Assembly (NCBI RefSeq): GCF_001182745.1
Contig: NZ_LN868938.1
Coordinates: forward strand, 248,001 to 312,000
DNA from: Nocardia farcinica
GTDB lineage: Bacteria > Actinomycetota > Actinomycetes > Mycobacteriales > Mycobacteriaceae
Length of the DNA: 64,000 bases
Direction of reading: 5' to 3'
Made by a program: the position numbers and the translations under genes. How positions within the stretch are numbered: position 1 is the first letter of the stretch; each line of letters opens with the position of its first letter. The notes under the pieces are model-generated. The model saw only the letters and a list, made by a program, of their open reading frames with translations. It was not told where the DNA came from and ran no database searches. Shown piece by piece: positions 13,718-40,373 of this stretch.

Positions 13718-13722
13718 GGACG

Positions 13723-21394: not shown

Positions 21395-21395
21395 G

Positions 21396-22469: not shown

Positions 22470-22495
22470 GGATCGGATTCAACCGAGGATCACCG

Positions 22496-22831: not shown

Positions 22832-22860
22832 CCCCGTCCCCGCAGCGAGGAGAAGCCCCA

Positions 22861-23069: not shown

Positions 23070-23115
23070 CGCCGCGCCACCGTCGCGCGGGCGTCACACA
23101 GCGAAAGAGAACACC

Positions 23116-23832
23116 ATGGTCACACTCAATTCGGATATGGGCGAGTCGTTCGGTATCCACACCTTCGGCAACGACGACCGGCTCGTCGGCCTCGTCGACA
23201 CCGTCAACGTCGCCTGTGGATTCCACGCCGGTGATCCGGTCGGCATCCACGAGACCGTCGCCAAGGCGCTGGCGGGCGGCGTCACCGTCGGCGCCCATCC
23301 CGGCCTGCCCGATCTGGTCGGCTTCGGCCGCCGCGAGATGAAGCTGTTCCCCGACGAGGCCGCCGACATCGTGCGATACCAGGTCGGCGCGCTGGTCGCC
23401 TTCCTCAAGGCCGAGGGCGGCACGCTCGACCACATCAAAGCGCACGGCTCGCTGTACGGGATGTCTTCGCGTGATCCCGAACTGGCCGAGGCGATCGCCA
23501 CCGTCGCCGCCGAATACGAGGTCCCGATCTTCGGCATCGCCGACAGCGAGCACGAGAAGGCCGCGCAGAAACTGGGTGTCCCGTTCGTGGCCGAGTTCTA
23601 CGTCGATCTGGGCTACCGGGCCGACGGCAGCCTCATCGTCGCGCGCCGGCCGCACGCGACCCCCGTGGCCGAAGCCACCGAACGAGCTCGCAAGGCACTG
23701 GTCGACGGCATCGCGACCGCCGTGACCGGCGAAGAGTTCGCGATGCGCGTCGATTCCATCTGCGTCCACTCCGACACCCCGAACGCCGTCGAGATCGCCC
23801 AGGCCGTTCGCGATGTGCTGTCCGCTGTGTGA
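23116..23832 (+). CDS. pxpA: 5-oxoprolinase subunit A, LamB/YcsF family
   Basis: 238-aa LamB/YcsF protein. Signatures: TLNSDMGESFGIHTFGND, VNVACGFHAGDPVGIHETV, VGAHPGLPDLVGFGRREM, and IKAHGSLYG. In PxpABC this subunit acts with PxpB and PxpC in ATP-dependent opening of 5-oxoproline to glutamate. GAAAGAGA precedes the ATG. It leads a unit with a biotin carrier, biotin carboxylase, pxpB and pxpC. Because GABA-pathway genes follow, a related lactam such as 2-pyrrolidone could be the substrate; that is inference. It is the only PxpA for two PxpB-PxpC pairs in this window. Confidence 0.9.
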   Translation: MVTLNSDMGESFGIHTFGNDDRLVGLVDTVNVACGFHAGDPVGIHETVAKALAGGVTVGAHPGLPDLVGFGRREMKLFPDEAADIVRYQVGALVAFLKAEGGTLDHIKAHGSLYGMSSRDPELAEAIATVAAEYEVPIFGIADSEHEKAAQKLGVPFVAEFYVDLGYRADGSLIVARRPHATPVAEATERARKALVDGIATAVTGEEFAMRVDSICVHSDTPNAVEIAQAVRDVLSAV

Positions 23833-23871
23833 CATTCCGGAGCCCACCGTCCCGACTCGAAAGGCACTCCC

Positions 23872-24117
23872 GTGAGCGAGCATCACGTCCTCTCGCCGTT
23901 GCCCGGCATCTTCTACCGTTCGCCCGCACCCGGCCAGCCCCGGTTCGTCGAGCCGGGCGCACCGGTCGAGGCCGACCAGACCGTCGGACTGGTCGAGATC
24001 ATGAAGCAGTTCACCGAGATCAAGGCGGGCGCCGCGGGGGTGCTCACGTCGTTCACGGTGGAAGACAACGGAACTCTCTCGCCCGGCGATGTCATCGCCG
24101 TCATCGAAACGAAGTGA
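23872..24117 (+). CDS. Biotin carboxyl carrier protein (biotinyl domain)
   Basis: 81-aa single biotinyl domain. The biotinylation site reads VEIMKQFTEIKAG; the Lys after Met is the expected target, although the usual AMKM is changed to IMKQ, as in carriers other than the main AccB. The domain opens with SPLPGIFYRSPAPGQP and closes with GDVIAVIET. The start is GTG 23872. It lies between pxpA and the biotin carboxylase, a pairing common in LamB/KipI/KipA clusters. It suggests that carboxylation takes part in this pathway, or that the set forms a distinct carboxylase. Confidence 0.87.
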   Translation: MSEHHVLSPLPGIFYRSPAPGQPRFVEPGAPVEADQTVGLVEIMKQFTEIKAGAAGVLTSFTVEDNGTLSPGDVIAVIETK

Positions 24118-24123
24118 CCAGCC

Positions 24124-25497
24124 ATGCGTAAGCTACTCATCGCCAACCGCGGCGAGATCGCGGTCCGGATCGCCCGGGCGGCCCGGGAACAGGGCATCGC
24201 CACCGTGGCCGTCTACAGCGCGGCCGACAAGGACGCCGAACACGTCCGTGCCGCCGACGAGTGTGTGCTCGTCGGACCGGCGCCGGCCACGGCGAGCTAC
24301 CTCAACGTGGCCGCGATCATGGACGCCGTGCGGGAAAGCGGCGCCGACGCGGTCCATCCCGGCTACGGATTTCTTTCCGAGAACGCCGATTTCGCGCAGG
24401 CCGTGCTCGACGCGGGCGCGCTGTGGGTGGGCCCGAGCCCCACCGCGATCCGGGAGATGGGCGACAAGGTCGCCGCCCGCAAGTCCGCCGAGGCGGCGGG
24501 CGTGCCCACCGTCCCCGGCTCGCCGGGCGAGGTACACGACGCGGCCGAAGCCGAGCAGATCGCCCAGCGCACCGGCTTCCCGCTGGCCATCAAGGCGGCC
24601 GCGGGCGGCGGCGGCCGCGGCATCCGCATCGTCGAACGGCAGGAGGATCTGGCCGCGGCGATCAGCACCGCCCAGGCCGAGGCACGCGCGGCCTTCGGCA
24701 GCGACGCGGTGTACGTGGAACGGTTCATCCCGCGTGCCAGGCACATCGAGGTGCAGATCTTCGGCGACGGCACGAACTTCGTCCATCTGGGCCTGCGGGA
24801 CTGCTCCATGCAGCGGCGGCGGCAGAAGGTCATCGAGGAGGCCGGCGAGCTGGGGTTGCCTGCGGCGGCGAGCACGGGCATGGCCGAGTCGGCCGTGCAG
24901 CTGGCCGCCAGCGTCGGCTACACCGGTGCGGGCACCGTCGAGTTCCTCTACGACGAGATGCGCGGCGAGTTCTACTTCATCGAGATGAACACCCGCATCC
25001 AGGTCGAGCACCCGGTCACCGAGATGATCTACCAGCGCGACCTGGTCGGGGAACAGCTGCGGGTGGCCGCCGGGGCGCCGCTGTCGTTCCGGCAGGAGGA
25101 GCTGGTGCCCGCCGGGCACGCGATCGAGGTGCGGATCAACGCCGAGAACCCGGCGCAGAGCTTCCTGCCCAGTCCGGGCGCGATCACCCGCTTCGATCTG
25201 CCCGCCGGGCCGTTCGTCCGGGTGGACAGCGGTTTCAAGGCCGGGTCGGTGGTGGCGCCGTTCTACGACTCGATGCTGGCCAAGGTGATCGTCTGGGGCG
25301 AGGACCGGCCGCGCGCCCTGGCCCGCCTGGGCCGCGCACTCGACGAGCTGGTGATCGAAGGGGTCACCACCACAGCCGATTTCGTGGCCGCCGTGCTCGC
25401 CACCGACGAGTTCCGGACCGGCCGTTACCACACCACGTGGCTGGAGGGGCGGCTGACCGCGCGGGAACAGGCACGGACGGAGACCGCCGATGCCTAG
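24124..25497 (+). CDS. accC: Biotin carboxylase (AccC-type)
   Basis: 457-aa biotin carboxylase subunit, a member of the ATP-grasp superfamily. Seen: KLLIANRGEIAVRIARAAREQ at the N terminus, the glycine-rich ATP loop KAAAGGGGRGIRIV, RDCSMQRRRQKVIEEAG, and the catalytic FIEMNTRIQVEHPVTEMI. It carboxylates biotin on the 81-aa carrier using ATP and bicarbonate. It starts 6 bases after the carrier stop and overlaps pxpB by 8 bases. Full length for a free-standing subunit; no carboxyltransferase of the usual AccA/AccD type is nearby, so the PxpB-PxpC pair may fill that role. Confidence 0.92.
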   Translation: MRKLLIANRGEIAVRIARAAREQGIATVAVYSAADKDAEHVRAADECVLVGPAPATASYLNVAAIMDAVRESGADAVHPGYGFLSENADFAQAVLDAGALWVGPSPTAIREMGDKVAARKSAEAAGVPTVPGSPGEVHDAAEAEQIAQRTGFPLAIKAAAGGGGRGIRIVERQEDLAAAISTAQAEARAAFGSDAVYVERFIPRARHIEVQIFGDGTNFVHLGLRDCSMQRRRQKVIEEAGELGLPAAASTGMAESAVQLAASVGYTGAGTVEFLYDEMRGEFYFIEMNTRIQVEHPVTEMIYQRDLVGEQLRVAAGAPLSFRQEELVPAGHAIEVRINAENPAQSFLPSPGAITRFDLPAGPFVRVDSGFKAGSVVAPFYDSMLAKVIVWGEDRPRALARLGRALDELVIEGVTTTADFVAAVLATDEFRTGRYHTTWLEGRLTAREQARTETADA

Positions 25498-26368
25498 CCG
25501 CTACTCCTGGGGCGCCGACGAGCACCTGGTCGTGCAGATCGCCGAGGAGATGACGCCGGCCGCGAACTTCACGGCGATGGCGATCAGCAACCGGCTGGCC
25601 GAACGTGACCTCGACGGCATCCTCGACATCTGTCCGGCGAACGCCTCGCTGCTGATCCGGTTCGACCCGGACCGGCTCGAGCCCGCGACGCTGGAAGCCG
25701 TGGTGCGCGCGATCGAGGAGGAGGTCGCGCGCCAGACCCATCCGGCCATCCGTACCCGGCTGCTCGAGATCCCGGTCTGGTACGACGATCCGATGACCCG
25801 CGAGGTCGGCGCGAAGTTCCGCGACCGACACCAGCGCCCCGAGGGCACCGATGTCGAGTACGCGATGGCCGAACTGGGCCTGGGATCGGTGGCGGAGTTC
25901 GTCGACCGTCATTCCTCGGCGCCGTGGCTGGTGTCGATGGTCGGGTTCGTGGCCGGTCTGCCGTTCATGTTCCAGATGGTCGAGCGGGAGCAGCAGATCG
26001 AGCTGCCGAAGTATCTGCGGCCGCGCACCGAGACACCGAAACTCACGGTGGGGCATGGCGGTTGCTTCGCCTGCATCTATTCGGTGAAGGGCGCGGGCGG
26101 GTACCAGATGTTCGGGGTGACCCCGCTGCCGATCTTCGACCCCGAGCAGCGCCATGCCGTCTTCCGCGAGTCGATGGTGCTGTTCCGGCCGGGTGACATC
26201 GTGAAGTTCCGGCCCGTCGACGAGGCCGAGTACCGGCGCCTGGCGGAGGCGGTGGACCGCGGCGAGAACGTCTATCGGACGGTCCCCGTCGATTTCGAGC
26301 TCAACGAATTCCTCGCCGACCCCGTCGCCTACAACAAACACCTCCTGGGAGCTCTCGATGCACGTTGA
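25490..26368 (+). CDS. pxpB: 5-oxoprolinase subunit B / KipI-like carboxyltransferase domain protein (copy 1)
   Basis: 292-aa KipI/PxpB-type protein (allophanate hydrolase subunit 1 domain). The core runs from LLIRFDPDRLEPATLEAVV through IPVWYDD, VSMVGFVAGLPFMFQM and CIYSVKGAGGYQMFGVTPLPIFDP. It is longer than typical KipI (about 240 aa) because of extra C-terminal sequence. It forms a complex with PxpC. ATG 25490 overlaps the biotin carboxylase end. A diverged second copy lies at 28358. Confidence 0.87.
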   Translation: MPSRYSWGADEHLVVQIAEEMTPAANFTAMAISNRLAERDLDGILDICPANASLLIRFDPDRLEPATLEAVVRAIEEEVARQTHPAIRTRLLEIPVWYDDPMTREVGAKFRDRHQRPEGTDVEYAMAELGLGSVAEFVDRHSSAPWLVSMVGFVAGLPFMFQMVEREQQIELPKYLRPRTETPKLTVGHGGCFACIYSVKGAGGYQMFGVTPLPIFDPEQRHAVFRESMVLFRPGDIVKFRPVDEAEYRRLAEAVDRGENVYRTVPVDFELNEFLADPVAYNKHLLGALDAR

Positions 26369-27326
26369 GATCATGGAGCCCGGCCTGGCCACCACCGTGC
26401 AGGACCTGGGCCGAAGCGGGGGGTACAACGTGGGGATCCCGCCGTCGGGCGCGCTCGACCAGACCTCGGCCAAGCTCGCCAACCTGCTGGTGGGCAATCC
26501 GGTGGACGCGGCCGTGCTGGAGGCGCCCTATCTCGGCCCGAAGCTGGCCTTCGACGGGCCCGGCGTCGTCGCCGTCACGGGCGGACAGGCACCGGTGTTG
26601 CTGAACGGCGTCGAGGTCGACGCCTGGGAGGCGTTCCCGGTCGTCGAGGGCGATGTGCTGTCGTTCGGCTACATCCAGCAGGGCGCGCGGCTCTACATCG
26701 CGGTCGCGGGCGGTTTCGACGTGCCCGAAGTACTCGGGTCGCGGTCGACCTACGGTCTCGGCGCACTGGGCGGGTATCAGGGCAGGCCGTTGCGCGCCGG
26801 GGACCGGCTGCCGGTCGGCGCGGCGGCGGGGCCGTTCGTACCCCGCCGCGTCCCCGAGCGGTCCCGTCCGGCCTGGTCGCGGGAGGTGGAGTTGCGGGTG
26901 GTCCTGGGGCTCTACGACTACCGGTTGACCGAGGAGGCCACGGAGGCGTTGCTCGGCACCGTCTGGACGCTGACGCCGGTCGCGGATCGCACCGGCTTCC
27001 GGTACTCGGGCGCGAAACTGACGTTCACCGACCGTACGCAACCTTTCGGTGCCGGATCGGATCCCTCGAACATCGTCGACGCGGGCTACCCCATCGGTTC
27101 GATCCAGGTGCCCAGCGGATCCGAGCCCATCATCCTGCACCGCGACGCGGTCTCCGGCGGTGGCTACGCGATGGTCGGCACCGTCATCAGCGTCGACATG
27201 GACATCGTCGGGCAGTCGGCGCCGGGCACGAACACCCGGCTGCGGGCGGTCTCGCTCGACGAGGCACTACGGGCCCGGCGGCACGCGCAGGGCCGCTTCG
27301 CCGACCTGGCCCAGGCGCTGGCCTGA
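26358..27326 (+). CDS. pxpC: 5-oxoprolinase subunit C / KipA-like protein (copy 1)
   Basis: 322-aa KipA/PxpC-type protein (allophanate hydrolase subunit 2, biotin-dependent carboxyltransferase fold). Signatures: EIMEPGLATTVQDLGRSGG near the start, PPSGALDQTSAKLANLLVG, VTGGQAPVLLNG, ARLYIAVAGGFDVPEVLGSRSTYGLG-like block, and GSIQVPSGSEPIIL. It overlaps pxpB by 11 bases. Normal family length. The gene converges with a second pxpC, with a strong hairpin between. Confidence 0.88.
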   Translation: MHVEIMEPGLATTVQDLGRSGGYNVGIPPSGALDQTSAKLANLLVGNPVDAAVLEAPYLGPKLAFDGPGVVAVTGGQAPVLLNGVEVDAWEAFPVVEGDVLSFGYIQQGARLYIAVAGGFDVPEVLGSRSTYGLGALGGYQGRPLRAGDRLPVGAAAGPFVPRRVPERSRPAWSREVELRVVLGLYDYRLTEEATEALLGTVWTLTPVADRTGFRYSGAKLTFTDRTQPFGAGSDPSNIVDAGYPIGSIQVPSGSEPIILHRDAVSGGGYAMVGTVISVDMDIVGQSAPGTNTRLRAVSLDEALRARRHAQGRFADLAQALA

Positions 27327-27330
27327 CCGG

Positions 27331-27361
27331 CTGCCCGCGCCGCGAGTCGCGGCGCGGGCAG
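27331..27361. terminator. Bidirectional terminator between convergent pxpC copies
   Basis: Perfect 15-bp inverted repeat (ctgcccgcgccgcga and its complement) around one central base, 4 bases after the stop of the rightward pxpC. It fills the 42-base gap between the two converging pxpC genes and is the strongest hairpin noticed in the window. Confidence 0.7.
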
Positions 27362-27368
27362 CGCACCG

Positions 27369-28361
27369 TCACTGCACGCGGACCGTGCGGCGCGGGTCGA
27401 CCGTGAAGTCGACCCGCTGGTTCAGCGCGAGCGCTTCCTCGTAGTCCACCTCCCGGAAGCGGATCGTGTCGCGGCCCGGCCGCATCTGTCCGACCTTCCA
27501 CAGCGCGCAGTGCGGCACGGTCGCCACCACCGCGAAGCCACCGGAGGTGTTGCCGTCCATGCCGAGGATGGTGAGCACGTCGCCGTTGGCGAGCACGCCG
27601 CCCACCGGGTAGGCGTCGTCGAGCACGTTCGACGGATGCCCGCCCGCGCTGCCGCCGTCCGGGCGCGCCCAGGTGAACCGGTACGGGTTGAGCCGGGTGG
27701 CGATCCGGTCGGAGTTCAGGTCCACCCGCCACTGCCTGCCGAGCAGCTCGGCCCAGTCGTCGGGGGTGAGGTAGTCCGGGCAGGCGTGCGGACCCTGGAT
27801 GATCTCGATCTCCCACTCGGTGCCGAACCGCGGCCGCATCGCCTCGGGCAGCCTGCGCCGGGGGATCGGCGCCGCGCCGTTGATCGCGAGCAGATCGCTG
27901 CGGACCAGGGCCCGGCCCTCGACCCCGCCGATGCCCGCCACCAGCGAGGTCGCCGCCGAACCGTAGACCTCGGGCACCGCGATCCCGCCGCGCACGGCCA
28001 GGTAGAGCCGGAAACCGGGGCCACCCGCGCCGATGGTGCGCAGCACGTCGCCTGCCCGCACGTCCACCGTCTCCCACGCGGCGGCGGGAACGTCGTTGAG
28101 CAGGACGGCGGCACCGTCCGGGGCGGCGACCGCGATCTGTGTGTCGATCAGGAACGCCACCGAGATCCCGATCTTGGGCACCTCCAGCGCAGGCGCCCCC
28201 GCCGGATTGCCGACGAGGACGTTGGCCGCGCGCAGCGACAGGTGATCCATGGGGCCCGCGGGGAAGTAGCCGAGCGAGGTGAGTCCCTGGCGTCCCGGCC
28301 ACGCCTGCACGGTGGTCTGCAGGCCGGGGTCGATGATCTCGAGCGCGGTGCGGGCGCTCAC
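27369..28361 (-). CDS. KipA/PxpC-like carboxyltransferase protein (copy 2)
   Basis: 330-aa relative of PxpC, diverged from copy 1 but with the same landmarks: LEIIDPGLQTTVQAWPGRQG, GYFPAGPMDHLSLRAANVLVG, FRLYLAVRGGIAVPEVYGSAATS, and GVLANGDVLTILGMDGNTSGGF. The start is GTG 28361 overlapping the pxpB-2 stop (GTGA); the longer frame to 28625 runs through that gene and is rejected. No PxpA accompanies this pair, so it may share the one at 23116 or have a different partner and substrate. Confidence 0.86.
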   Translation of the reverse strand: MSARTALEIIDPGLQTTVQAWPGRQGLTSLGYFPAGPMDHLSLRAANVLVGNPAGAPALEVPKIGISVAFLIDTQIAVAAPDGAAVLLNDVPAAAWETVDVRAGDVLRTIGAGGPGFRLYLAVRGGIAVPEVYGSAATSLVAGIGGVEGRALVRSDLLAINGAAPIPRRRLPEAMRPRFGTEWEIEIIQGPHACPDYLTPDDWAELLGRQWRVDLNSDRIATRLNPYRFTWARPDGGSAGGHPSNVLDDAYPVGGVLANGDVLTILGMDGNTSGGFAVVATVPHCALWKVGQMRPGRDTIRFREVDYEEALALNQRVDFTVDPRRTVRVQ

Positions 28362-29359
28362 GGCACCGTCACCCGGCTCGCGGCCGCCCTGCGCTCGGCG
28401 GCGACGGCGGCGGCCGCTCCGGCCAGCCGCCCGACCTGGTCGAGATAGTCCGCGACCACGAATTCGTCCTCCTCGATCCGGTATTCGTAAGTGCCTTCGA
28501 ACACCCGCAGGCGCTCGGTGAGCAGTTCCTTCTCGGTGACCCGCGTGAACGTCACCCGGTCGCCCACCTGGAACAGATTCGACCGGGCCGCGACCGTGGC
28601 CGGTGCGGAATCGGCGGTGCGGCAATCACTTCCGGTGAAATCGTGGTTCCACAGCGGCAGCGTCCGGCCGAACAGCTGGTACGAGCCGGGCGACTCGACC
28701 GGATACAGCACCACACAGGGCCCGCCGATCCCCACGGCGCCCTCGGCGGTCCACATCCGGGCCGGGTTGTACTTGGGCACCGAGATCTGGGTGAGCGGGT
28801 CGAGGGCGAACAGCGACGGCAGGCCGGGAAAGTAGCCGATGAAGGCGTTCCACCAGGTGGTGGCCAGGAAGCGCGCGAAGAACTCCTCCCGGTTGGTGAA
28901 GCCGTTGTAGCGCACGATGTAGTCGATGTTGTCGCCGTCGGCGACGTTGGGCGCATCGTTGCGGGTGGTGATCCGGTAGCGCTTGACCGCCTCGCGCGTC
29001 ATCTCGTCGTCGAAGGCGATCGGCATGGTCAGCCGCCGGCTCGGCAGTACCAGCGAATCCAGGTCGGGCGCGGCCCGCTCGCGCGCGATCACCTCCTCGA
29101 GCAGGCGGGTCCGCGGGATCCGGGCCGGGTCGAAGGTCACCATCATCGAGCGGAAGCCTGGGGCGGTCTCGAGCACCCCGTCGACGGGGTCGTTCGCCAG
29201 CGCCTGCCGCAGCGCGTGCACGCGGAAGTTCAGGCGCAGGTCCACCTCCATCTCCCCGTACTCGACGAGGATCTGATGGTCTCCGGCTTGGCGTACCTGC
29301 ACCGCGGGCCGCTCGGGTCCGGCGGGGAGCGTGTGCAGGATCGTGGGAGACGAGGGCAT
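28358..29359 (-). CDS. KipI/PxpB-like carboxyltransferase protein (copy 2)
   Basis: 333-aa PxpB relative. Landmarks: ILVEYGEMEVDLRLNFRVHAL, RSMMVTFDPARIPRTRLLEEV, MPIAFDDEMTREAVKRY, FIGYFPGLPSLFALDPL, and CVVLYPVESPGSYQLFGRTLPLW. It is longer than KipI, like copy 1. The start at ATG 29359 is chosen because the family homology begins just after it; the ribosome site is weak. The gene is divergent from a PucR-like regulator, with a palindrome between them, and is coupled to pxpC-2. Confidence 0.85.
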   Translation of the reverse strand: MPSSPTILHTLPAGPERPAVQVRQAGDHQILVEYGEMEVDLRLNFRVHALRQALANDPVDGVLETAPGFRSMMVTFDPARIPRTRLLEEVIARERAAPDLDSLVLPSRRLTMPIAFDDEMTREAVKRYRITTRNDAPNVADGDNIDYIVRYNGFTNREEFFARFLATTWWNAFIGYFPGLPSLFALDPLTQISVPKYNPARMWTAEGAVGIGGPCVVLYPVESPGSYQLFGRTLPLWNHDFTGSDCRTADSAPATVAARSNLFQVGDRVTFTRVTEKELLTERLRVFEGTYEYRIEEDEFVVADYLDQVGRLAGAAAAVAAERRAAASRVTVP

Positions 29360-29435
29360 GGGCTGTCCGATCTGTCCGGTCGGGGGCGGGTCGCTGCCTC
29401 GAATGATGGCCGCTACCCGCCGTCGTGCAATGCTC

Positions 29436-29452
29436 CCCGGTGTACAACACCG
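29436..29452. promoter_or_regulatory. Palindrome in the pxpB-2 / regulator divergent region
   Basis: CCGGTGT-ACA-ACACCGG, a 7-bp inverted repeat around three bases, 77 bases upstream of pxpB-2 and 94 bases upstream of the regulator. More CCGGTG copies follow at about 29488-29502. A likely operator for the divergent PucR-type regulator; inferred. Confidence 0.45.
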
Positions 29453-29545
29453 GACGAGCAGCCTGCCACACCGGCCAGCACGAACCGGTGCGCCGGTGCC
29501 CCATGCTGGGAGACCCCCGAATTCGGAAAGGAGTTGCCGCCGCAG

Positions 29546-30681
29546 ATGTCGGACTCCGCTGACGCGGTCGCCCGCGCCCACCGCGAACTGGTGCGCGCCT
29601 CGGTCGCGGCCCAGGGCACCCGAGGCATCGCCGAGCGCATCGCCGGTCTGGTCGGCGGGTGGTTGCTGGTCCTGGACGGGTCGGGCGCCCCGCTGGCTTC
29701 GATTCCGGAGGGGGCGCGCGCGCATCTGGCATTGGTGCAGACCGAACTGTCCCGGTTCACCGCGGGCGCGCGCCCGACCACGATGTCGCTGGTCATTCCC
29801 GGTGAGTCCGTCTCGATCCGGCCGGTCGGGTGGCCGGGCGCATCCGCGGGTTCATCGCCATCGGCCGCGCGAACCCGCTCGACGCGATCGAACGCTCGCT
29901 GGTCGATACCGCCACCTACCTGCTGGCCGAGGACCTGCATCGCAGCGACGAACTGCGCCGAGCCGCCCGCAACAACCGCTCGGCGGTGCTGCATCTGCTG
30001 CTCGGCGGGCACGCCGAGGTGGCCCGCAGCACCAGTGAGATCCTGCGGGTGCCGATCCCGGACGGGCCGGTGCGCGCCGCCCTGCTCGGCGTGCCCCGCC
30101 GATACGCGCTGGAACTGCTCGAAGCGGCCGAGGAGGACCAGGCGCTGCGCCGGATCGAGACGGTCATCGCGGAGCTGCGACCGGGCCGGATCGGCATCGT
30201 CCTGCCGACCGCCGAGGGTGACGTGCGCACGCTGGAGGCCATCCTGCGCCGGGTGCCGCACGGACGGGGCGCCGTCACCGATCCGGTGGAGGTGACCGAC
30301 CTTCCCGCGGCCTGGCGGCGCGTGCGCGGGGTGTTCGAGGCGGCCTCGGACCAGCCCGGCAAGCTGTACATGGCCCGCGACGTCTCCGAGGCGGGCCTGC
30401 TGCGCCATCTCACCGGTCCCGACGCACGGGCCTGGGCGCAGGCGGCGCTGGCGCCGCTCACCGCACTCGACAAGGGATCCAAGGTCGATTTCGCGCAGAC
30501 GTTGCGGGCGTTTCTCGCCCACAACGGGCAGGCCGACGCCTCCGCGGGATCGCTGGGCATCCACCGGCACACCTTGCGCTACCGGATGACCCGGATCGCC
30601 GATGCGCTCGGGCGCGACCTCGACGACCCGACCGTGCGCGCGGAACTCTGGTTCGCGCTGCAGCTGTACCCGGACGAGTGA
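29546..30681 (+). pseudogene. PucR/CdaR-type transcriptional regulator, interrupted by a -1 frameshift
   Basis: Regulator with the PucR C-terminal helix-turn-helix (VDFAQTLRAFLAHNGQ, then LGIHRHTLRYRMTRIADALG). The N terminus from ATG 29546 (DAVARAHRELVRASVAAQG, IAGLVGGWLLVLDGSG) is in one frame to about 29827; homology resumes in another frame (GRIRGFIAIGRANPLDAIER) to the stop at 30681. Adding one G to the GGG run at 29828-29830 makes a single protein of about 378 aa (PVGVAGRIRGF), so the gene is either recently broken or misread here. It is divergent from pxpB-2 and probably controls it and the GABA genes nearby. Confidence 0.8.
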
Positions 30682-30694
30682 CCCGCCCGCGAAC

Positions 30695-31084
30695 TCAGGA
30701 CACCGCCGCCCGCAGCCCCGCAAGGCCCTCCGCACAGGCCGGGCCGAACGCGGCCGCCAGCTCCGCCGGCTCGATCTCGGTGCTGTAGACCACCAGCGAG
30801 CGATCCGCGTCCAGCGCGAGCACGTCGACCGTGCCCAGATGGGCGGTCACCGGGAGGTCGCCGCCGATCACCCGGTATTGCAGCCTGCGCAGGTCGTCGT
30901 CGAGGGTGACCACCTGCTCGTCCAGCGTGCTGCCGTCGGCCAGCGTCACCGAGCGCCGCTGCTGGTCCCCGCTGGACGCGGTGATCGCGGGGAACCAGCG
31001 GCTGATGCCGGGGACGTCGCGCACCACCTGCCACACCGTGTCGGCGCTGCGGTCGATCAGCACGTGCGAGCGAAGCGTTGCCAT
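30695..31084 (-). CDS. SRPBCC/polyketide-cyclase-type protein
   Basis: 129-aa START/Bet v1-like fold protein: SHVLIDRSADTVWQVVRDVPGISRWFPAI at the N terminus followed by alternating strands and a C-terminal helix (FGPACAEGLAGLRAAVS). Such proteins bind or convert small hydrophobic molecules; no function can be assigned. ATG 31084 has AAAGGA 7 bases upstream, whereas the frame to 31234 is unsupported. It is divergent from the aldehyde dehydrogenase. Confidence 0.75.
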   Translation of the reverse strand: MATLRSHVLIDRSADTVWQVVRDVPGISRWFPAITASSGDQQRRSVTLADGSTLDEQVVTLDDDLRRLQYRVIGGDLPVTAHLGTVDVLALDADRSLVVYSTEIEPAELAAAFGPACAEGLAGLRAAVS

Positions 31085-31100
31085 GGAGATTCCTTTGCTG

Positions 31101-31130
31101 TCGAAGGGGCGAATGCTCTCGAAGGGGCGA
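31101..31130. repeat. Two 12-bp direct repeats in the SRPBCC/aldehyde dehydrogenase promoter region
   Basis: tcgaaggggcga occurs at 31101-31112 and again at 31119-31130, an 18-base period. It sits within the 230-base divergent region; it may be a regulator site, but also overlaps the 5' leader of the leftward gene. Confidence 0.3.
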
Positions 31131-31314
31131 TCCGGGGTGTCAGCCTGCCGCAGTTCCGAGGCGGCGCGAGTGCGCGAGTTGGACACCTCGGACGCGATCT
31201 TTGCGACAGAAGGGGGATGTTCCGGGCGACGCACGGCCGGGCACGCTGCTGCGAACGCGCGGCGGCGGCCTGCTGTCCGCCGCCGCGGAGCAGCGGAAGG
31301 AAGGCGGAGCGGAA

Positions 31315-32766
31315 GTGCGCGACAGGGATGTGCTCGACAGGGTGCCCACCGGCCTGTTCATCGGCGGCGGCTGGCGGGAGGCCGACGACGGGGCCCGGTT
31401 CCCCGTCGAGGATCCGGCCACCGGTGCGCGGTTGGCCGACGTGGCCGACGGCGGCCCGGCGGAAATGGCGGCCGCGCTGGACGCGGCCGCCGAAGCGCAG
31501 CGGTCGTGGGCGACGACCCCGCCCCGGCAGCGCTCGGACCTGCTGCGTGCCGCCTACGAGGAGGTGCTGCGGCGCCTGGACGAGTTCGCACTGCTGATCA
31601 CCCTGGAGATGGGCAAGCCGCTCGCCGAGTCGCGCGGCGAGGTGCGCTACGGCGCGGAATTCCTGCGGTGGTTCGCCGAGGAAGCGGTGCGTGTCGGCGG
31701 CCGGTGGGGACGCTCGCCCGAGGGCGCCACCCGCATGCTCACCATGAAGGAGCCGGTGGGGCCGACGCTGATGATCACGCCGTGGAACTTCCCGCTGGCG
31801 ATGGCCACCCGCAAGATCGCCCCCGCCGTGGCCGCCGGATGCACGATGGTGCTCAAACCGGCCGAGCAGACCCCGCTCACCGCGCTGGCCTTCGCCGAGC
31901 TGCTGCGGACCGCGGGCCTGCCCGACGGGGTGCTCAACGTCGTCACCACCACCCGTGCGCCGGAGACGATCGCGCCGCTGCTGCGCGACCAGCGACTGCG
32001 CAAACTCACCTTCACCGGGTCCACGGCGGTGGGCAAACGGCTGCTGGCACAGGCCGCCGACCAGGTGTTGCGGGTGTCGATGGAACTGGGTGGCAACGCG
32101 CCGTTCCTGGTGTTCGAGGACGCCGACCTGGACCGCGCGATCGAGGGCGCGATGGTGGCGAAGATGCGCAATGTCGGGCAGGCCTGTACCGCGGCCAACC
32201 GGCTGCTGGTGCACGAGGCGGTGGCCGAGAAGTTCGCGGCCGGTTTCGCCGCGGCGATGGCCGCGCAGAAGATCGGCCGTGGCACCGAGCCCGGCGTGCA
32301 GGTCGGGCCGCTGATCGACGCCCGGGCACGCGACAAGGTGGCGCGCCTGGTGGCCGACGCCGCCGGGGACGGTGCGCGGGTGCTCACCGGCGGTTCGGCC
32401 GTCGACGGACCGGGCTACTTCTACGCACCCACCGTGCTGACCGATATCGGTGACCACCCGGTCGCGCGGGAGGAACTGTTCGGTCCGGTGGCGCCGATCG
32501 CGACGTTCGGCTCCGTCGAGGAGGCCGTCGCGATGGCCAACGCGACCGAGTACGGCCTGGCTTCCTACGTCTTCTCGGAGAACCTCTCGCGCGTGCTGGA
32601 GGTGGTGGAGAACCTCCAGTTCGGAATGGTCGGGGTCAACCAGGGCGTGGTATCGAACGCGGCGGCGCCGTTCGGCGGGATCAAGCACTCGGGCTTCGGG
32701 CGCGAAGGCGGGATCGAGGGCATCGAGGAGTATCTGGCCACCAAGTACGTGGGGATCGCGTCGTGA
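31315..32766 (+). CDS. NAD(P)-dependent succinate-semialdehyde dehydrogenase-like aldehyde dehydrogenase
   Basis: 483-aa aldehyde dehydrogenase of the GabD group. Seen: MITPWNFPLAMATRKIAPA, TFTGSTAVGKRL (cofactor loop), catalytic Glu in ELGGNAPFLVFEDADLDRA, catalytic Cys in NVGQACTAANR, and the C-terminal EELFGPVAPI and GGIKHSGFGREGG. It would oxidise succinic semialdehyde to succinate, fitting gabT 4 kb downstream. The GTG start at 31315 is chosen from the family alignment and AAGGCGGAG upstream; ATG 31330 is an alternative. It overlaps the CitE-like gene as GTGA. Confidence 0.87.
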   Translation: MRDRDVLDRVPTGLFIGGGWREADDGARFPVEDPATGARLADVADGGPAEMAAALDAAAEAQRSWATTPPRQRSDLLRAAYEEVLRRLDEFALLITLEMGKPLAESRGEVRYGAEFLRWFAEEAVRVGGRWGRSPEGATRMLTMKEPVGPTLMITPWNFPLAMATRKIAPAVAAGCTMVLKPAEQTPLTALAFAELLRTAGLPDGVLNVVTTTRAPETIAPLLRDQRLRKLTFTGSTAVGKRLLAQAADQVLRVSMELGGNAPFLVFEDADLDRAIEGAMVAKMRNVGQACTAANRLLVHEAVAEKFAAGFAAAMAAQKIGRGTEPGVQVGPLIDARARDKVARLVADAAGDGARVLTGGSAVDGPGYFYAPTVLTDIGDHPVAREELFGPVAPIATFGSVEEAVAMANATEYGLASYVFSENLSRVLEVVENLQFGMVGVNQGVVSNAAAPFGGIKHSGFGREGGIEGIEEYLATKYVGIAS

Positions 32767-33620
32767 CGGCCGCCGGACCCGCCGCATCCGCGCGGCGGGT
32801 GCCCGCCACCCACGCACGCTCGTGGCTGCTGGTGCCCGCCGACGACGCCGACCGGTATGCCACCGCCGCCGCCTCCGCGGCCGATGCGGTGGTACTCGAC
32901 CTCGAGGACGGTGTGGCCGCCGACCGGAAGGCCGATGCCAGGGCCGAGGTCGCCCGGCTGCTGCGGTCCGGACACCGGGCGTGGGTGCGGATCAACGACG
33001 CCGACTCCGTCCACTGGTCCGACGACCTCGCCGCGCTCGCCGAGCTGCCGGGTCTGGCCGGCGTGGTACTCGCCAAGACCGAGCACGGCGAGCAGGTGGA
33101 CGCCACCGCCGCGAGGCTGCCGGGCGGGCTGCCGATCGTCGCGCTCGTCGAGTCCGCCGCGGGACTCGAGGCGAGCGGCGAGATCGCCGGGCGCCCGGCC
33201 ACGACCCGATTGGCTTTCGGCAGTGGCGATTTCCGGCGGGACACCGGTATCGCGCGGGATCCGGCGGTGCTGGCGTATCCGCGATGCCGGTTGACCGTGG
33301 CCAGCCGGGCGGCCGGTCTGCCAGGACCCGTCGACGGTCCGACGGTGGGGGCGGACCCGGCCCTGCTCCGGTCGGAGACGGCCGACGCCGCGGCGGCGGG
33401 CATGACCGGGCGGTTGTGCCTGCGCGCCGAGCACACCGCCGTGGTGAACGACCTGCTGTCCCCGTCGCCCGACGAAATCGCCTCGGCCACCGCACTTCTC
33501 CGGCGATACCGGGCGGGCGGTCCGCGCGACGGCTCCGATGCGCCCCGGCTGGCCCGCGCCGAACAGGTCGTGGCATTGGCTCGCGTCTTCGACCGCGACG
33601 CCGTCACGGCCAGGCGGTGA
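32763..33620 (+). CDS. HpcH/HpaI aldolase/CitE-like lyase
   Basis: 285-aa TIM-barrel protein of the citrate lyase beta/HpcH group. Features: SWLLVPADDADRYATAA, VVLDLEDGVAADRKADAR (the metal/substrate segment), GVVLAKTEHGEQVD, and IVALVESAAGLEAS with a metal-binding Glu. Family members cleave or make C-C bonds of acyl-CoAs such as malyl- or citramalyl-CoA. It is coupled to the GabD-like dehydrogenase (GTGA overlap). It overlaps the converging sigma-factor gene by 17 bases. Its part in the pathway is unclear. Confidence 0.82.
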   Translation: MTAAGPAASARRVPATHARSWLLVPADDADRYATAAASAADAVVLDLEDGVAADRKADARAEVARLLRSGHRAWVRINDADSVHWSDDLAALAELPGLAGVVLAKTEHGEQVDATAARLPGGLPIVALVESAAGLEASGEIAGRPATTRLAFGSGDFRRDTGIARDPAVLAYPRCRLTVASRAAGLPGPVDGPTVGADPALLRSETADAAAAGMTGRLCLRAEHTAVVNDLLSPSPDEIASATALLRRYRAGGPRDGSDAPRLARAEQVVALARVFDRDAVTARR

Positions 33621-34524: not shown

Positions 34525-34550
34525 ACCCAGTAGACGACACGGCGCCGCGA

Positions 34551-34591
34551 AATGTCAGGACCGGCCGCTGTCACGCGGATCACCTGACATT
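34551..34591. promoter_or_regulatory. Inverted repeat between the ECF sigma gene and the ABM-qcrB unit
   Basis: AATGTCAGG (34551-34559) and CCTGACATT (34583-34591) are perfect inverted copies 23 bases apart; a TGTCAC lies between them. TGTCA-type -35 elements are typical of ECF41 promoters, so each arm may be the -35 of one divergent promoter, or the pair a repressor site. No fitting CGTC -10 element at the usual spacing was found, so this stays tentative. Confidence 0.45.
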
Positions 34592-34667
34592 CCGGCGTCG
34601 CCGGTCGTCCTGATCGATGAGGGCCCCGGTGCAGGACCGTGGGCCACCGACAGGAAGGAGGCCGGCC

Positions 34668-34979
34668 GTGACCGCCACGTTCGTCAACATCATCTCGGTC
34701 GATCCCGCCAGGCAGCAGGAGCTGATCGAGGTCCTGACCGAAGGCACCGAGCAGGTGATCCGGCACCGGCCCGGGTTCGTGTCGGTGACCCTGCTGGCCG
34801 CGGTGGACGGTTCGCGGGTGATCACCATCGCCCAGTGGGACGGTCCCGACGATGCCGAGGCCACCCTCGCCGACCCCCGCGCGCAGGAATTCGCGGCGCG
34901 GATCGCCGAACTGGGTGTGCCCGAAGCCGGTGTCTATCGGCCCGCCGGACAGTTCACGCCGCCGGCACGCACCCGATGA
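34668..34979 (+). CDS. Antibiotic biosynthesis monooxygenase (ABM) domain protein
   Basis: 103-aa dimeric alpha/beta-barrel protein ([54 protein letters not shown]). ABM proteins include quinone-forming cofactorless oxygenases and heme-handling proteins. The start is GTG 34668 with AAGGAG 7 bases upstream. It is divergent from the ECF41 sigma gene, the position normally held by that sigma factor's oxidoreductase target, and overlaps the cytochrome b start by 4 bases (ATGA), which ties the two together. Confidence 0.82.
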
Positions 34980-36622: not shown

Positions 36623-36830
36623 AACGGAGTACGGGTTGTTGGTGCCCGCCGCGACCGTCACCGACCACGAGACGGCACAGCTGGTCCGTACGGTGCTGCG
36701 CGACAACGGCATCCGCGCCACCGCCGGACCCGCGGCGAGAGCGCGTCGCTGGGGTGGCCGGGTCGTGGTCCTGGTGTTCCCCGAAGACGCCCGCCGCGCC
36801 TACGAGGTGTTGTGCAGGCACACCCGGTGA
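36609..36830 (+). CDS. Small protein resembling DUF2007 signal-transducing proteins
   Basis: 73 aa when read from GTG 36609, which overlaps the qcrB end by 14 bases; TTG 36636 behind ACGGAG is an alternative. The pattern [18 protein letters not shown]...[19 protein letters not shown] is like the short DUF2007 fold (beta-alpha-beta plus helix). Function unknown. Most likely cotranscribed with qcrB. Confidence 0.5.
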
Positions 36831-36845
36831 GCCCGGCACCGCAGC

Positions 36846-36977
36846 TCAGGCGACGCCGAGGTACATCGTGTCCAGGAGCACCTCGCCGGTGGCGGGGCCG
36901 GGTATCGGGACGGTGGCGCCGCGGAACGCCTCGGTGGACCGGCCGCCGCGCCGCCGACCGGCGGGGACATCGATCAT
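36846..36977 (-). pseudogene. N-terminal remnant of an NADP-dependent (MDR) oxidoreductase
   Basis: 43-codon frame whose ATG overlaps the gabT stop (ATGA). Its sequence STEAFRGATVPIPGPATGE then VLLDTMYLGVA resembles the N terminus of CurA/YncB-type medium-chain reductases (…EVLLRTLYLSLDPYMRG…), but a stop follows where the fold should continue, and no remainder is seen. It looks like a truncated gene once downstream of gabT in the same operon. As the match is by eye over about 35 residues, it could also be a small unrelated coupled protein. Confidence 0.4.
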
Positions 36978-38338
36978 CGGGTCCGCTCCGCTCGGTTCCG
37001 GGCGGCGGCGCGCACGACGTCGTCGAGCACGTCGAGCGCGTCGGTGAGCAGCTCGTCGCCGATGACCAGCGGCGGCAGCAGCCGCACCACGTTGCCGTCC
37101 GTGCCGCAGGTCAACAGGATCACGCCCTGCTCGAGCGCGCCGGCGGCGACCGCGCGCGTGAGTGCGGCATCCGGCTCCGTGGTGCCGGGCACCACGAACT
37201 CCATCGCCAGCATCGCGCCGCGCCCGCGCACGTCGCCGATCGCCGGAATCTCCGCGGCCAGCGCCCGCAGGCGGCCGGTCACGATCCGCTCGATGTGCCG
37301 GGCGCGCGCGGGCAGATCCAGCTCGCGCATGGTCGCGATGGTGGCGAGCGCCGCCGCGCACGCGATCGGGTTGCCGCCGTAGGTGCCGCCCAGGCCGCCG
37401 GGATGGACGCGGTCGAGCAGCTCGGCGCGCCCGGTGATCGCCGCCAGCGGCAGCCCGCCCGCGATGCCCTTGGCCAGGGCGATGATGTCGGGCACGACCT
37501 GTTCGTGGTCGCAGGCGAACCACGCGCCGGTGCGGGCGAAGCCGGTCTGCACCTCGTCGGCGATGAACACGACGCCGTTCGCGCGCGCCCAGGCGGCCAG
37601 GGCGGGCAGGAAACCCGGTGCGGGAACGATGAATCCGCCCTCGCCCTGAATCGGTTCGAGCACGATCGCGGCGACCGCGTCGGCACCGATCTGTTTCTCG
37701 ATCCGGTCGATCACCCGCTGGGCGGCCGCCGGACCGTCCAGGGCCGCGCCGTCGCGGAACGGATACGACATCGGCATCCGGTAGATCTCCGGGGCGAACG
37801 GTCCGAAGTGCGCCTTGTACGGCATGGACTTGGCGGTCAGCGCCATCGTCAGGTTGGTGCGCCCGTGGTAGGCGTGGTCGAAGACGACCACGGCGGTGCG
37901 CCCGGTGGCCAGCCGCGCCACCTTGATCGCGTTCTCCACCGCCTCGGCGCCGGAGTTGAACAGCACGGTGCGCTTGTCGTGCGTGCCGGGCGTGAGCGCC
38001 GCGAGTTCCTCGGCGACCCGCACGTACCCCTCGTACGGGGTGACCATGAAGCACGTGTGGGTGAAGTGCCCGGCCTGGGCGCGTACCGCCTCGACGACGG
38101 CGGGATGGGCCGCGCCCACCGAGGTGACCGCGATGCCCGAGCCCAGATCGACGAGCGAGTTGCCGTCGACGTCGACCACCACACCGCCGTCGGCGTCGGC
38201 GGCGTAGACCGGAAGGCTGGACCCGACACCGGCCGCGACGCTGGCGCGGCGGCGTTCGGCGATGGCCCGCGATGCCGGGCCGGGCAGGTCGGTGATCAGC
38301 TTGCGCTGCTGCGGAAGCCGGTAGTCGAGGACTGTCAT
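36974..38338 (-). CDS. gabT: 4-aminobutyrate--2-oxoglutarate transaminase
   Basis: 454-aa class III PLP aminotransferase (usual length 420-460). It moves the amino group of GABA to 2-oxoglutarate, giving succinic semialdehyde and glutamate. Seen: [60 protein letters not shown], and the PLP lysine in [16 protein letters not shown]. The start at ATG 38338 is the one that fits the family; the frame to 39346 runs antisense into the next gene. It is divergent from a PucR-type regulator. With the GabD-like enzyme at 31315 it completes the GABA shunt. Confidence 0.9.
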
Positions 38339-38403
38339 CTGGTGGGACCCCTGTCGGTACTGGTCGGAGGACCCCAGTGTGGGCCGCCCGAGCCCACCGC
38401 GGA

Positions 38404-38425
38404 CCTGCCATAGTGGAGTGGCAGG
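38404..38425. promoter_or_regulatory. Palindrome in the gabT / PucR divergent region
   Basis: CCTGCCA-N8-TGGCAGG, 7-bp arms, 46 bases before the regulator start and 66 bases before gabT. The middle contains catagt, a possible -10 box. Probable operator for the divergent PucR-type regulator. Confidence 0.4.
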
Positions 38426-38470
38426 GCGGCGCCGACGCGCCGTTTCGTCGCGTGCCGGCAGGAGATGACG

Positions 38471-39994
38471 ATGAGCGTGACCGTCGGCTGGGTGCTGGCG
38501 CAGCCGAATCTGTTCCTGCGGCTGCGCGGGGGCGCGGCCGGGCTCGACCGCGCCATCGAATTCGCCATCACCACCGAGCTGCCGGATCCCTCGCCGTGGC
38601 TCTCCGGCGGCGAACTGCTGCTCACGACCGGGCTGGGGGTTCCTGCCGGGGCGGACGGCTGCCGGGAGTACGTGCGTCGGCTGCGCGACGCGGGTGTCGC
38701 GGCCGTCGGCTTCGGTGTCGGGCTGACGCACGCGGAGGTCCCCGCGGAGCTGATCGCGGCCGCCGACGAGATCGGTCTCCCGCTGCTCGAGGTCCCGTTG
38801 CCGACCCCGTTCGCCGCGGTCACCAAACGGGTCATGGACAGCCTCGCCGAACAGCGCTACGACGCGCTGGTCCGGGCCTCGCGCGCGCAGCCGCGGATGA
38901 CTCGCGCCGTGGTGCGGGGCGGCGCCCGCGCGATCGTGCGCGAGCTGGCGGTGGCGACCGGGGCGACCGCGCTGTTGTTCGACCGCCGCGGCCGGCTCCT
39001 CGAACACCATCCGGCGCGGGTCGCCGCGGCGACCCGCGTGGAGATGTCCGCGCTGATCGGGTCGGTGACCCGGGCCGCGGCGAGCATCGCCGCGCAGGCG
39101 GAGTCGGGGCAGGCGGTGACGGTGCATCGCGTCGGCCTCGGCGGCGTCGTGCACGGGTGCCTCGCCGTGGTCTCGGCCGCGCCGCTCGGCTCGGTCGATC
39201 AGGTGCTGCTCGGTCACGCCACGTCGCTGCTCGCCCTGGACTTCGCGAAACCGGCGCGCCTTCGGTCGGCGCAGAACCGGCTCAACTCGCAGGTCCTCGG
39301 ACTGCTGCTCGCCGAGACCGGGGAACTCCCGTCCGCCGCCGAGCACCTGGCCCCGGCGGCCGACGACGACGGCGAGATCCGCGCGCTCGTCGCCGACTGC
39401 GGATCATCCGAGCACGCGGCGGCGGTGGCGCGGGCCGTCGAAGCTGCGGCCGATGCCGCCGCCCGCCCGCTCTACCTGCGCCGCACCGATCACCGGGTGA
39501 CGGTGCTGCTGCGCGGAACCGACGACGCCGCGTTCGCGCGCGCCCTGCTCGCCGGTGCCGACGCGGCCGCACGCCGGGCGGCGCGCCTCGGCCTGAGCGA
39601 ACCGCTGCCGGTCGAGCGCTTCGCGGCGGCGATCGACCGGGCGCGCCTGGCCGCCGCCGCGGCCGAGGCGGGAACGGTGCAGGAGTTCGCGGCGCTGGCC
39701 GGCCGCACCCTGCTGACCGTCGACGCCGCCCGGCAGGTGCTGCGCTCGGTGGCCGACGCCACCATCGCCCCGCTCGCCGCACACGACCGCGACCACGGCA
39801 CCGACCTGGTCGCCTCGCTGCGCGCCTTCCTCGAGGCCAACGGCCACTGGGAGTCCGCGGCCCACGCCCTCGGCGTACACCGGCACACGCTGCGCAGCCG
39901 GATCGCCCGGATCGAAGCCCTGCTCGGCTGCCGCCTCGACGTCGCCCGCGTACGGGCGGAACTGCTGTTGGCCCTCATCGCCGCCGACACCTGA
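38471..39994 (+). CDS. PucR family transcriptional regulator
   Basis: 507-aa regulator with the PucR layout: an N-terminal purine-catabolism-regulator-like domain (VGWVLAQPNLFLRLRGG, LLLTTGLGVPAGADG, GVGLTHAEVPAELIAAADEIGLPLLEVP), a middle GGDEF-like/CdaR part, and a C-terminal HTH (LVASLRAFLEANGHWESAA, LGVHRHTLRSRIARIEALLG). ATG 38471 is preferred to 38465 because GGAG then lies 6 bases upstream. Divergent from gabT, which it likely controls, with GABA or a related compound as inducer by analogy. Confidence 0.87.
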   Translation: MSVTVGWVLAQPNLFLRLRGGAAGLDRAIEFAITTELPDPSPWLSGGELLLTTGLGVPAGADGCREYVRRLRDAGVAAVGFGVGLTHAEVPAELIAAADEIGLPLLEVPLPTPFAAVTKRVMDSLAEQRYDALVRASRAQPRMTRAVVRGGARAIVRELAVATGATALLFDRRGRLLEHHPARVAAATRVEMSALIGSVTRAAASIAAQAESGQAVTVHRVGLGGVVHGCLAVVSAAPLGSVDQVLLGHATSLLALDFAKPARLRSAQNRLNSQVLGLLLAETGELPSAAEHLAPAADDDGEIRALVADCGSSEHAAAVARAVEAAADAAARPLYLRRTDHRVTVLLRGTDDAAFARALLAGADAAARRAARLGLSEPLPVERFAAAIDRARLAAAAAEAGTVQEFAALAGRTLLTVDAARQVLRSVADATIAPLAAHDRDHGTDLVASLRAFLEANGHWESAAHALGVHRHTLRSRIARIEALLGCRLDVARVRAELLLALIAADT

Positions 39995-40049
39995 GCGCTC
40001 GCCTGCCGACTCGGGCGACCGTGCTCCCGATCCGGTGCTGCTGCTGTGA

Positions 40050-40342: not shown

Positions 40343-40373
40343 CGATTCCCGCTTCGCGTCCCGGAGGTCTTTC

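Follow-up and report, generated by a model that had tools for sequence, protein, structure and literature searches.

A candidate pyrrole-degradation operon of Nocardia farcinica joins a toluene-monooxygenase-type enzyme to biotin-linked Pxp genes

Which compound does a bacterium attack with a gene cluster that encodes a PxpA-type lactam hydrolase, biotin enzymes and a semialdehyde dehydrogenase? The question is raised by a stretch of 64,000 nucleotides from Nocardia farcinica (bases 248001–312000 of contig 1, in a genome of 6.46 Mb; referred to below as the window), for which an initial annotation had listed PxpA, a biotin carrier, a biotin carboxylase, two PxpB-PxpC pairs, a GabD-type dehydrogenase, GabT and two PucR/CdaR-type regulators within 17 kb. 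All of these genes are found where they had been placed, the first of the two regulators being broken across two frames; as a unit, however, the 17-kb region begins in the middle of an operon, and eight same-strand genes directly upstream had been overlooked. We propose, at what we consider an even chance, that this operon serves the catabolism of pyrrole and, where a relative also has the decarboxylase HudA, that of pyrrole-2-carboxylate. This reading builds on the linkage of a soluble diiron monooxygenase (SDIMO) to the Pxp genes, on the biotin and GabD genes in their neighbourhood, and on the occurrence of HudA together with UbiX and MarR in three loci.

An operon of thirteen genes

Thirteen genes lie on the same strand (+) between positions 17501 and 27326, with a spacing between neighbours of −11 to 47 bp. 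The first encodes a protein of the acetoacetate decarboxylase fold (ADC-like; 17501–18238) and is followed by the six genes of an SDIMO: the hydroxylase alpha subunit (TmoA-like, 18286–19782; Pfam Phenol_Hydrox, about 714 bits to the structures of toluene 4-monooxygenase (T4MO) and toluene-o-xylene monooxygenase (ToMO)), gamma (TmoB-like, 19809–20069; TmoB), the effector (TmoD/MmoB-like, 20070–20411; MmoB_DmpM), beta (TmoE-like, 20408–21394; Phenol_Hydrox), the NAD(P)H reductase (TmoF-like, 21399–22469; Fer2, FAD_binding_6 and NAD_binding_1) and the Rieske ferredoxin (TmoC-like, 22496–22831; Rieske). Next come a 4-oxalocrotonate-tautomerase-type protein with an N-terminal Pro (MPFVRID; 22860–23069; Pfam Tautomerase), a predicted lactam hydrolase of the PxpA (LamB/YcsF) type (23116–23832; PF03746; 262 bits to NF003814, cut-off 226), the biotin carboxyl carrier protein (23872–24117; Biotin_lipoyl), the biotin carboxylase (24124–25497; 635 bits to NF006367, cut-off 597) and the two carboxyltransferase halves PxpB (CT_C_D, 25490–26368) and PxpC (CT_A_B, 26358–27326; 258 bits to TIGR00724, cut-off 230).

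PxpA is linked to a single lineage of diiron monooxygenases

The SDIMO alpha subunit was searched against a collection of one genome per species, covering 84,980 species, and the best 80 of 88 loci were taken. The window proteins were then placed on these 80 loci with flanks of up to 10 kb, shorter at contig ends; longer flanks were fetched for 15 of the 16 loci in which PxpA was found (all except L034), while the controls stayed at their original flanks. PxpA lies near the SDIMO in 16 of the 80 loci (L023–L036, L052 and L095) and has no match in the remaining 64, so that the grouping goes beyond chance. The 16 loci span two phyla and come from five Nocardia, two Gordonia, two Streptomyces, an Amycolatopsis, a Saccharopolyspora, a Haloechinothrix and four metagenome-assembled genomes (MAGs; two Acidimicrobiia, one Sneathiellales and one Acidovorax). 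Among the best 80 loci, the closest named relatives of the window SDIMO are those of N. donostiensis and N. sienata (96%).

These 16 loci had been chosen by gene content, and their status as a single clade emerged from the tree afterwards. A tree was built from 57 alpha subunits (the window and 56 of the 80 loci, the 24 omitted loci having no PxpA match); in it, the 16 loci and the window make up exactly one SDIMO clade (support 100/98, recovered in 100% of 200 bootstrap trees); the clade has a single origin. The six residues that we take from T4MO to be the diiron ligands (E104, E134, H137, E197, E231 and H234 of the window) are kept in all 17 clade members as well as in the 62 other rows of the alignment. 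In contrast, V100, V103 and N193 are shared by all 17 clade members, whereas just 2, 1 and 5 of the 62 others, respectively, have them; judging from work on T4MO and ToMO, some of these positions presumably line the active-site pocket.

The ADC-like gene follows the same pattern, being found in 15 of the 16 PxpA-linked loci (all but L032) and in none of the 64 others. Thirteen loci carry the full five-gene set of PxpA, carrier, biotin carboxylase, PxpB and PxpC, eleven carry the second PxpB/PxpC pair or one of its genes, and twelve carry the tautomerase, which stands before PxpA in the Nocardia/Gordonia form of the cluster and after PxpC in the Streptomyces/Pseudonocardiaceae form. Stray matches among the 64 controls were a tautomerase-like (35%, L093), a PucR-like (39%, L097), a biotin-carboxylase-like (45%, L083) and a GabT-like protein (26%, L098). 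A survey of 394 genomes of the class scored only seven candidates per genome.

Two Pxp lineages and their biotin partners

Phylogenetic analysis of PxpA gave a different picture from that of the SDIMO. Monophyly of all 17 linked PxpAs was rejected (approximately unbiased test, p = 0.0004), and they fall into two clades, indicating that SDIMO and PxpA came together on more than one occasion or were paired anew. The test left out P0012 and P0020, whose context was unseen, and the long branches L001, L120 and L130, while P0023, like eight further P rows of unseen context, was retained. Two PxpA lineages are thus joined to one SDIMO clade, which is hard to explain unless the SDIMO needs lactam opening.

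The neighbours of the Nocardia/Gordonia cluster PxpA are actinobacterial PxpAs. Complete five-gene sets include four of these (L127, L128, L129 and L131), and no SDIMO match was found within about 10 kb of them. PxpA of the remaining clusters groups near Aureimonas and Thioclava, whose five-gene sets likewise stand without an SDIMO. Together with a set in Limosilactobacillus, these are the cases in which the five genes occur with no SDIMO in the surrounding 7 to 10 kb or so, and the set itself was therefore dropped as the novelty of the locus. In L130, PxpA is the only window gene present. Another PxpA, 70% identical to that of the window (P0053), comes from Nocardioides pyridinolyticus, a species whose name suggests a pyridine degrader.

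For both PxpBs and for the second PxpC of the window, the urea carboxylase model outscores the 5-oxoprolinase models (98 versus 78 bits for the PxpB of the operon), and the carrier keeps the motif E-[IVA]-M-K, the lysine of its EIMK aligning with that of seven homologues. The ATP- and biotin-based lactam opening of the initial annotation, here urea-carboxylase-like and followed by a semialdehyde dehydrogenase, is supported by our analysis. On contig 2 of the N. farcinica genome there is another pxpA with homologues of pxpB and pxpC behind it, and none of the six biotin-carboxylase-like genes of the genome is near it.

In 6/16 loci, genes for biotin synthesis or uptake adjoin the cluster. The Sneathiellales and Haloechinothrix loci have BioY, L052 and the Acidovorax locus have BioB, BioA and BioF-like genes, and the two Streptomyces have a BioF-like gene. 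BioA and BioB score above their NCBIfam cut-offs, and the two BioF-like proteins scanned reach 373 and 401 bits versus a cut-off of 426. The same queries found nothing in the 64 controls except a class III aminotransferase (24–32%) in L098, the 16 loci having been searched over longer flanks. A GabT-like gene in L052 proved to be BioA, standing beside BioB and the BioF-like gene. The BioB frame of L052 (16330–17718) is PxpC-like in its first part, with matches inside the PxpC of L033; a PxpC-BioB junction or a fault of the MAG assembly are possible explanations. In the Acidovorax locus (L095), a carbonic anhydrase gene adjoins GabD.

The second PxpC (CT_A_B, 27369–28385, −; 289 bits to TIGR02712) and second PxpB (CT_C_D, 28358–29314, −, start uncertain; 227 bits to TIGR02712 versus 46 to the PxpB model) of the window are both urea-carboxylase-like. 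The pair (27369–29314) is convergent to the operon and has no biotin carboxylase of its own, and the two carboxyltransferases may share one.

GabD is linked to the cluster in part of the loci, GabT in none of the relatives

The initial annotation had proposed that 2-pyrrolidone is opened to γ-aminobutyrate (GABA), the substrate of GabT, and had named pxp-gab linkage in related genomes as a point to check. Linkage fails for gabT and holds for gabD. Homologues of the GabD-like semialdehyde dehydrogenase (31291–32766, +) with 50–82% identity lie within 10 kb of PxpA in seven of the 16 loci (N. donostiensis, N. sienata, N. aobensis, N. africana, N. coubleae, Acidovorax and Sneathiellales), and Gordonia spumicola, outside this count, has one about 23 kb from PxpA. 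In the remaining loci the best GabD is located elsewhere or the contig end is too near. Thirteen of the 64 controls also contain an aldehyde dehydrogenase, none above 37%.

The GabT of the window (36974–38341, −), in contrast, is linked to the cluster in 0/16 relatives, which removes it as a pathway member. Together with its PucR regulator (38465–39994), it is set apart from the operon by intervening genes for a sigma factor and a cytochrome b. GabT homologues of 61–75% occur in six genomes, on another contig or at a distance of 1.6 Mb; of the five Nocardia carriers, three have GabT matches of 36–39% only and two have none at E <= 1e-60. The case closest to a pxp-gabT pairing, and the one that favours this part of the initial annotation, is a 6.6-kb contig (L132) from the Acidimicrobiia MAG of L034, on which a second PxpA-carrier-biotin carboxylase run (51–57%), cut by the contig end, lies 3 kb from a GabT-like sequence (41%, with stops); no SDIMO match was found on this contig. 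Opening of the ring as an enamine would make a transaminase unnecessary.

HudA-like decarboxylases accompany the cluster in some relatives

A further clue to the substrate comes from genes next to the cluster in other species. In N. aobensis and N. africana, a UbiD-type decarboxylase, UbiX and MarR lie beside the GabD end, and in G. spumicola the same three genes are found about 18 kb past PxpA, so that a HudA homologue with UbiX and MarR is near the cluster in 3/16 loci. Homologues in Streptomyces are more distant, about 65 kb off on the same contig in Streptomyces violens and on another contig in Streptomyces sp. Ru73, and in Saccharopolyspora the MarR gene follows PxpC in the absence of a UbiD of this kind. 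The UbiD of N. aobensis scores 659 bits to HudA (PA0254) versus 460 to ferulate decarboxylase and keeps the HudA residues N318, E316, Y279, W322 and M434, F432 being replaced by Ile; its best NCBIfam name, BagN/FevL, is matched with 387 bits, far below the cut-off of 1000. The available text on HudA describes an enzyme that interconverts pyrrole-2-carboxylate and pyrrole (PMC7976604).

HudA-like genes (E <= 1e-150) were found in two of 148 relatives, both among the five that carry the SDIMO-Pxp combination (p = 9e-4, uncorrected for kinship). Since the window genome is without such a UbiD, the substrate there would be pyrrole itself. The upstream monooxygenase, along with HudA in relatives, points to pyrrole and away from the 2-pyrrolidone of the initial annotation.

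A proposed route from pyrrole to succinate

In the route that we propose, the T4MO-type diiron monooxygenase would hydroxylate pyrrole at C2, and the resulting 2-hydroxypyrrole would settle as the lactam 3-pyrrolin-2-one. The Pro-1 tautomerase, perhaps together with the ADC-like or an SRPBCC protein, would then form 4-pyrrolin-2-one. Going by the chemistry of the enzyme families, the biotin carboxylase would load the carrier with CO2 at the expense of ATP, PxpB-PxpC would carboxylate the nitrogen of the lactam in the manner of urea carboxylase, and the activated amide would be hydrolysed by PxpA; loss of CO2 and of the enamine nitrogen would yield succinate semialdehyde and ammonia with no transaminase. 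Finally, GabD is predicted to convert succinate semialdehyde to succinate.

Weighing the pyrrole reading

What is observed directly is a set of closely packed genes that is conserved in two phyla, with a single origin of its SDIMO clade and two PxpA lineages joined to it, and that is linked to biotin, SSADH-like (succinate-semialdehyde-dehydrogenase-like) and HudA genes. Several points weigh against reading this as a pyrrole pathway. The enzyme activities of the route are all inferred, and the ADC-like protein, the SRPBCC protein and the second PxpB/PxpC pair are not assigned to a step of it. The five-gene set has no pyrrole-specific role of its own, because it also exists without a nearby SDIMO. 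Some of the clusters are incomplete, as L034 stops at PxpA and searches found neither a biotin carboxylase in L052 nor a PxpC in L095, and the tautomerase was not found in 4/16 loci, one of them a short contig. Only seven of the 16 loci have GabD close by, and the window GabD reaches 561 bits versus the SSADH cut-off of 646 (TIGR01780), the Sneathiellales copy being above it with 731 bits. HudA was not found in the window genome at E <= 1e-60, and HudA-like genes are missing from 11 of the 16 other carrier genomes. Nor is HudA proof of pyrrole, as the enzyme is reported to accept thiophene-2-carboxylate weakly and indole-3-carboxylate readily (PMC7976604).

Several of these points would also fit another N-heteroaromatic substrate (a substituted pyrrole, an indole-type, imidazole or pyridine-type ring) that is attacked by the SDIMO and opened as a lactam by the biotin/Pxp enzymes, with the dehydrogenase acting on a different semialdehyde. 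We regard this as unlikely, though it deserves to be reckoned with: the GabD score lies below the SSADH cut-off, and to our knowledge the chain length accepted by GabD-family enzymes is not fixed by sequence; HudA-like genes occur in only five of 17 genomes and not in that of the window; and the second carboxyltransferase pair, together with an HpaB-type gene set in 4/16 loci, suggests that there is more than one substrate. On the other hand, ring-reduction or pyridine-type genes were not recognised in the recurrent families scanned, which are a part of all recurrent families, and pyrrole is indicated by the HudA, UbiX and MarR genes that three loci have near the cluster. A much lower probability attaches to the route from 2-pyrrolidone via GABA and GabT to succinate semialdehyde and its oxidation by GabD, for which the named genes are all inside 17 kb and one MAG even shows a GabT-like sequence near a different PxpA-carrier-biotin carboxylase set. 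Besides the missing GabT linkage, it would leave a six-gene aromatic-type monooxygenase and a tautomerase superfluous in the operon.

The remaining two readings separate the halves of the operon, and we consider both quite improbable. In one, the Pxp and biotin genes encode a 5-oxoprolinase that stands behind a toluene-type monooxygenase by chance, in agreement with a window PxpA above the cut-off of the PxpA subfamily model and with five-gene sets that occur elsewhere without an SDIMO. Chance association is at odds with the presence of PxpA in 16 loci of one SDIMO clade and in 0/64 others and with two PxpA lineages beside that same clade, and the genome has a separate, biotin-free pxpABC. In the other, hydrocarbons are what the SDIMO oxidises, and the lactam genes, expressed from the same promoter, deal with a nitrogen source that has no connection with them. 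The solved structures nearest to the SDIMO are indeed toluene monooxygenases, but the V, V, N signature at positions 100, 103 and 193 sets the clade apart from nearly all other rows, the gene order differs, and PxpA was not found beside other SDIMOs. Pyrrole is therefore the substrate that we prefer.

Relation to known systems

The SDIMO of the window shares with T4MO and ToMO all six components (alpha, beta, gamma, effector, Rieske and reductase), and its alpha subunit can be aligned over the full length with 3dhg and 1t0q, diiron ligands included. It differs in its separate clade with the V100/V103/N193 pocket signature and an adjoining PxpA, as well as in gene order, which is alpha-B-D-E-reductase-Rieske in the window, whereas most other loci have alpha-B-Rieske-D-E-reductase.

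Homologues of PxpA, PxpB and PxpC also constitute the 5-oxoprolinase of Escherichia coli and Corynebacterium glutamicum, and the window PxpA passes NF003814. In contrast to these systems, a carrier and a biotin carboxylase are inserted between PxpA and PxpB, and PxpB (78 bits, cut-off 146) and PxpC (184 bits, cut-off 500) remain under the equivalog cut-offs. C. glutamicum grows on 5-oxoproline via pxpTABC, and the available part of that account makes no mention of a carboxylase (PMC13274462). The caprolactamase CapAB of Pseudomonas jessenii likewise opens a lactam in an ATP-dependent manner and is described, in the text available, as dissimilar to PxpABC (PMC8453981).

Biotin carboxylase, carrier and CT_A_B/CT_C_D domains are shared with urea carboxylase, whose model TIGR02712 matches the biotin carboxylase, PxpB and PxpC of the window. 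Here they are separate genes instead of one multidomain chain and score 98 to 517 bits versus a cut-off of 1304. In urea amidolyase, allophanate hydrolase takes the place that PxpA has in the window, where the predicted substrate is a lactam; no such amidase partner was found among the window genes scanned, which covered part of the window. HudA/PA0254 resembles the homologues near the cluster in three loci in its conserved pocket and differs from the window system in having no counterpart in that genome at E <= 1e-60; HudA yields pyrrole and does not open its ring, according to the text available (PMC7976604).

The ADC-like protein shares the fold of acetoacetate decarboxylase, a match that came from fold comparison, an alignment-based sequence search of the PDB having returned nothing. 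Among 14 sequences of its family, no column that is invariant or close to it holds a Lys, so that the expected Schiff-base lysine is lacking; a role as Schiff-base decarboxylase is not favoured.

All parts of the cluster come from known families, and it is their assembly into a pyrrole pathway that appears to be new. Among the matches listed from open-licence PMC papers there was no gene-level route from pyrrole onward, nor was one found in the available parts of PMC8453981, PMC13274462, PMC7976604, PMC6165268 and PMC12899673. We hold it possible, with somewhat less confidence than the choice of substrate, that this is the first genetically complete route by which pyrrole is mineralised aerobically, with diiron dearomatisation to a lactam, N-carboxylation by a split urea-carboxylase-like system and hydrolysis by PxpA to succinate semialdehyde and ammonia. 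On this view, the biotin form of Pxp would serve as a lactam amidolyase of general scope, with two Pxp lineages having supplied it to a single monooxygenase lineage here. The cluster would provide the genes from pyrrole to succinate, and it probably enables soil bacteria to degrade this nitrogen-containing aromatic ring, in a biotin-assisted way, to succinate and ammonia. The SDIMO family would gain a nitrogen-heterocycle branch, and the biotin-bearing PxpABC sets, annotated as acetyl-CoA carboxylase parts in the records examined, would receive a substrate and a mechanism.

Further features of the locus

Next to the second carboxyltransferase pair, a PucR/CdaR-type regulator (29363–30681, +) is split into two frames with a break at ~29830. 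Homologues occur in 12/16 SDIMO-PxpA loci and are a single open frame in relatives (e.g., L103 and L104), and the split may reflect a decayed gene or a sequencing error. It is followed by an SRPBCC (Polyketide_cyc2) protein (30695–31093, −) with homologues in 8/16 of these loci, one of them at 31% only. An HpcH/CitE-like protein (32763–33620, +; Pfam HpcH_HpaI) lies 3′ of GabD, as it does in L103, L105 and L106, and is either accessory or unrelated.

A promoter and terminator scan of positions 16500–31500 was uninformative, with no sigma-70-like sites (shuffle mean 1.0) and six terminator-like sites (shuffle mean 4.3). In a plasmid collection, no close copy of the cluster was found among the matches listed, the best SDIMO alpha reaching 62% and the best PxpA 53%. 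Upstream of the operon, 9684–16572 encodes two Rieske oxygenase alpha subunits, an acyl-CoA-dehydrogenase-like protein and a short-chain dehydrogenase/reductase, close homologues of which were not found beside the SDIMO in relatives. On the other side, GabT, its divergent PucR regulator and a transporter-plus-carbonic-anhydrase-like gene form a separate neighbourhood (36974–43094), the carbonic-anhydrase-like call being based on the reading of the open reading frame and a 32% match to carbonic anhydrase.

The HpaB-type set recurs near the cluster in four of the 16 loci at varying positions (L024 882–8839, L032 965–5578, L107 4273–12258 and L109 9067–17706) and comprises a flavin monooxygenase, a flavin reductase, a cupin, a DUF2848 protein, a nitrilase-like hydrolase, an amidohydrolase, a transporter of the major facilitator superfamily and a GntR regulator; the copy in L032 is without the two hydrolases in the stretch covered. 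HpaB matches among the controls were confined to two loci at 30–35%. The set could represent a two-component monooxygenase route for pyrrole-2-carboxylate. In three Nocardia loci, genes for a dehydrogenase E1 and a dihydrolipoamide-dehydrogenase-like protein are also found near the cluster (L026 5013–7807, L035 4305–6832 and L104 7607–10344).

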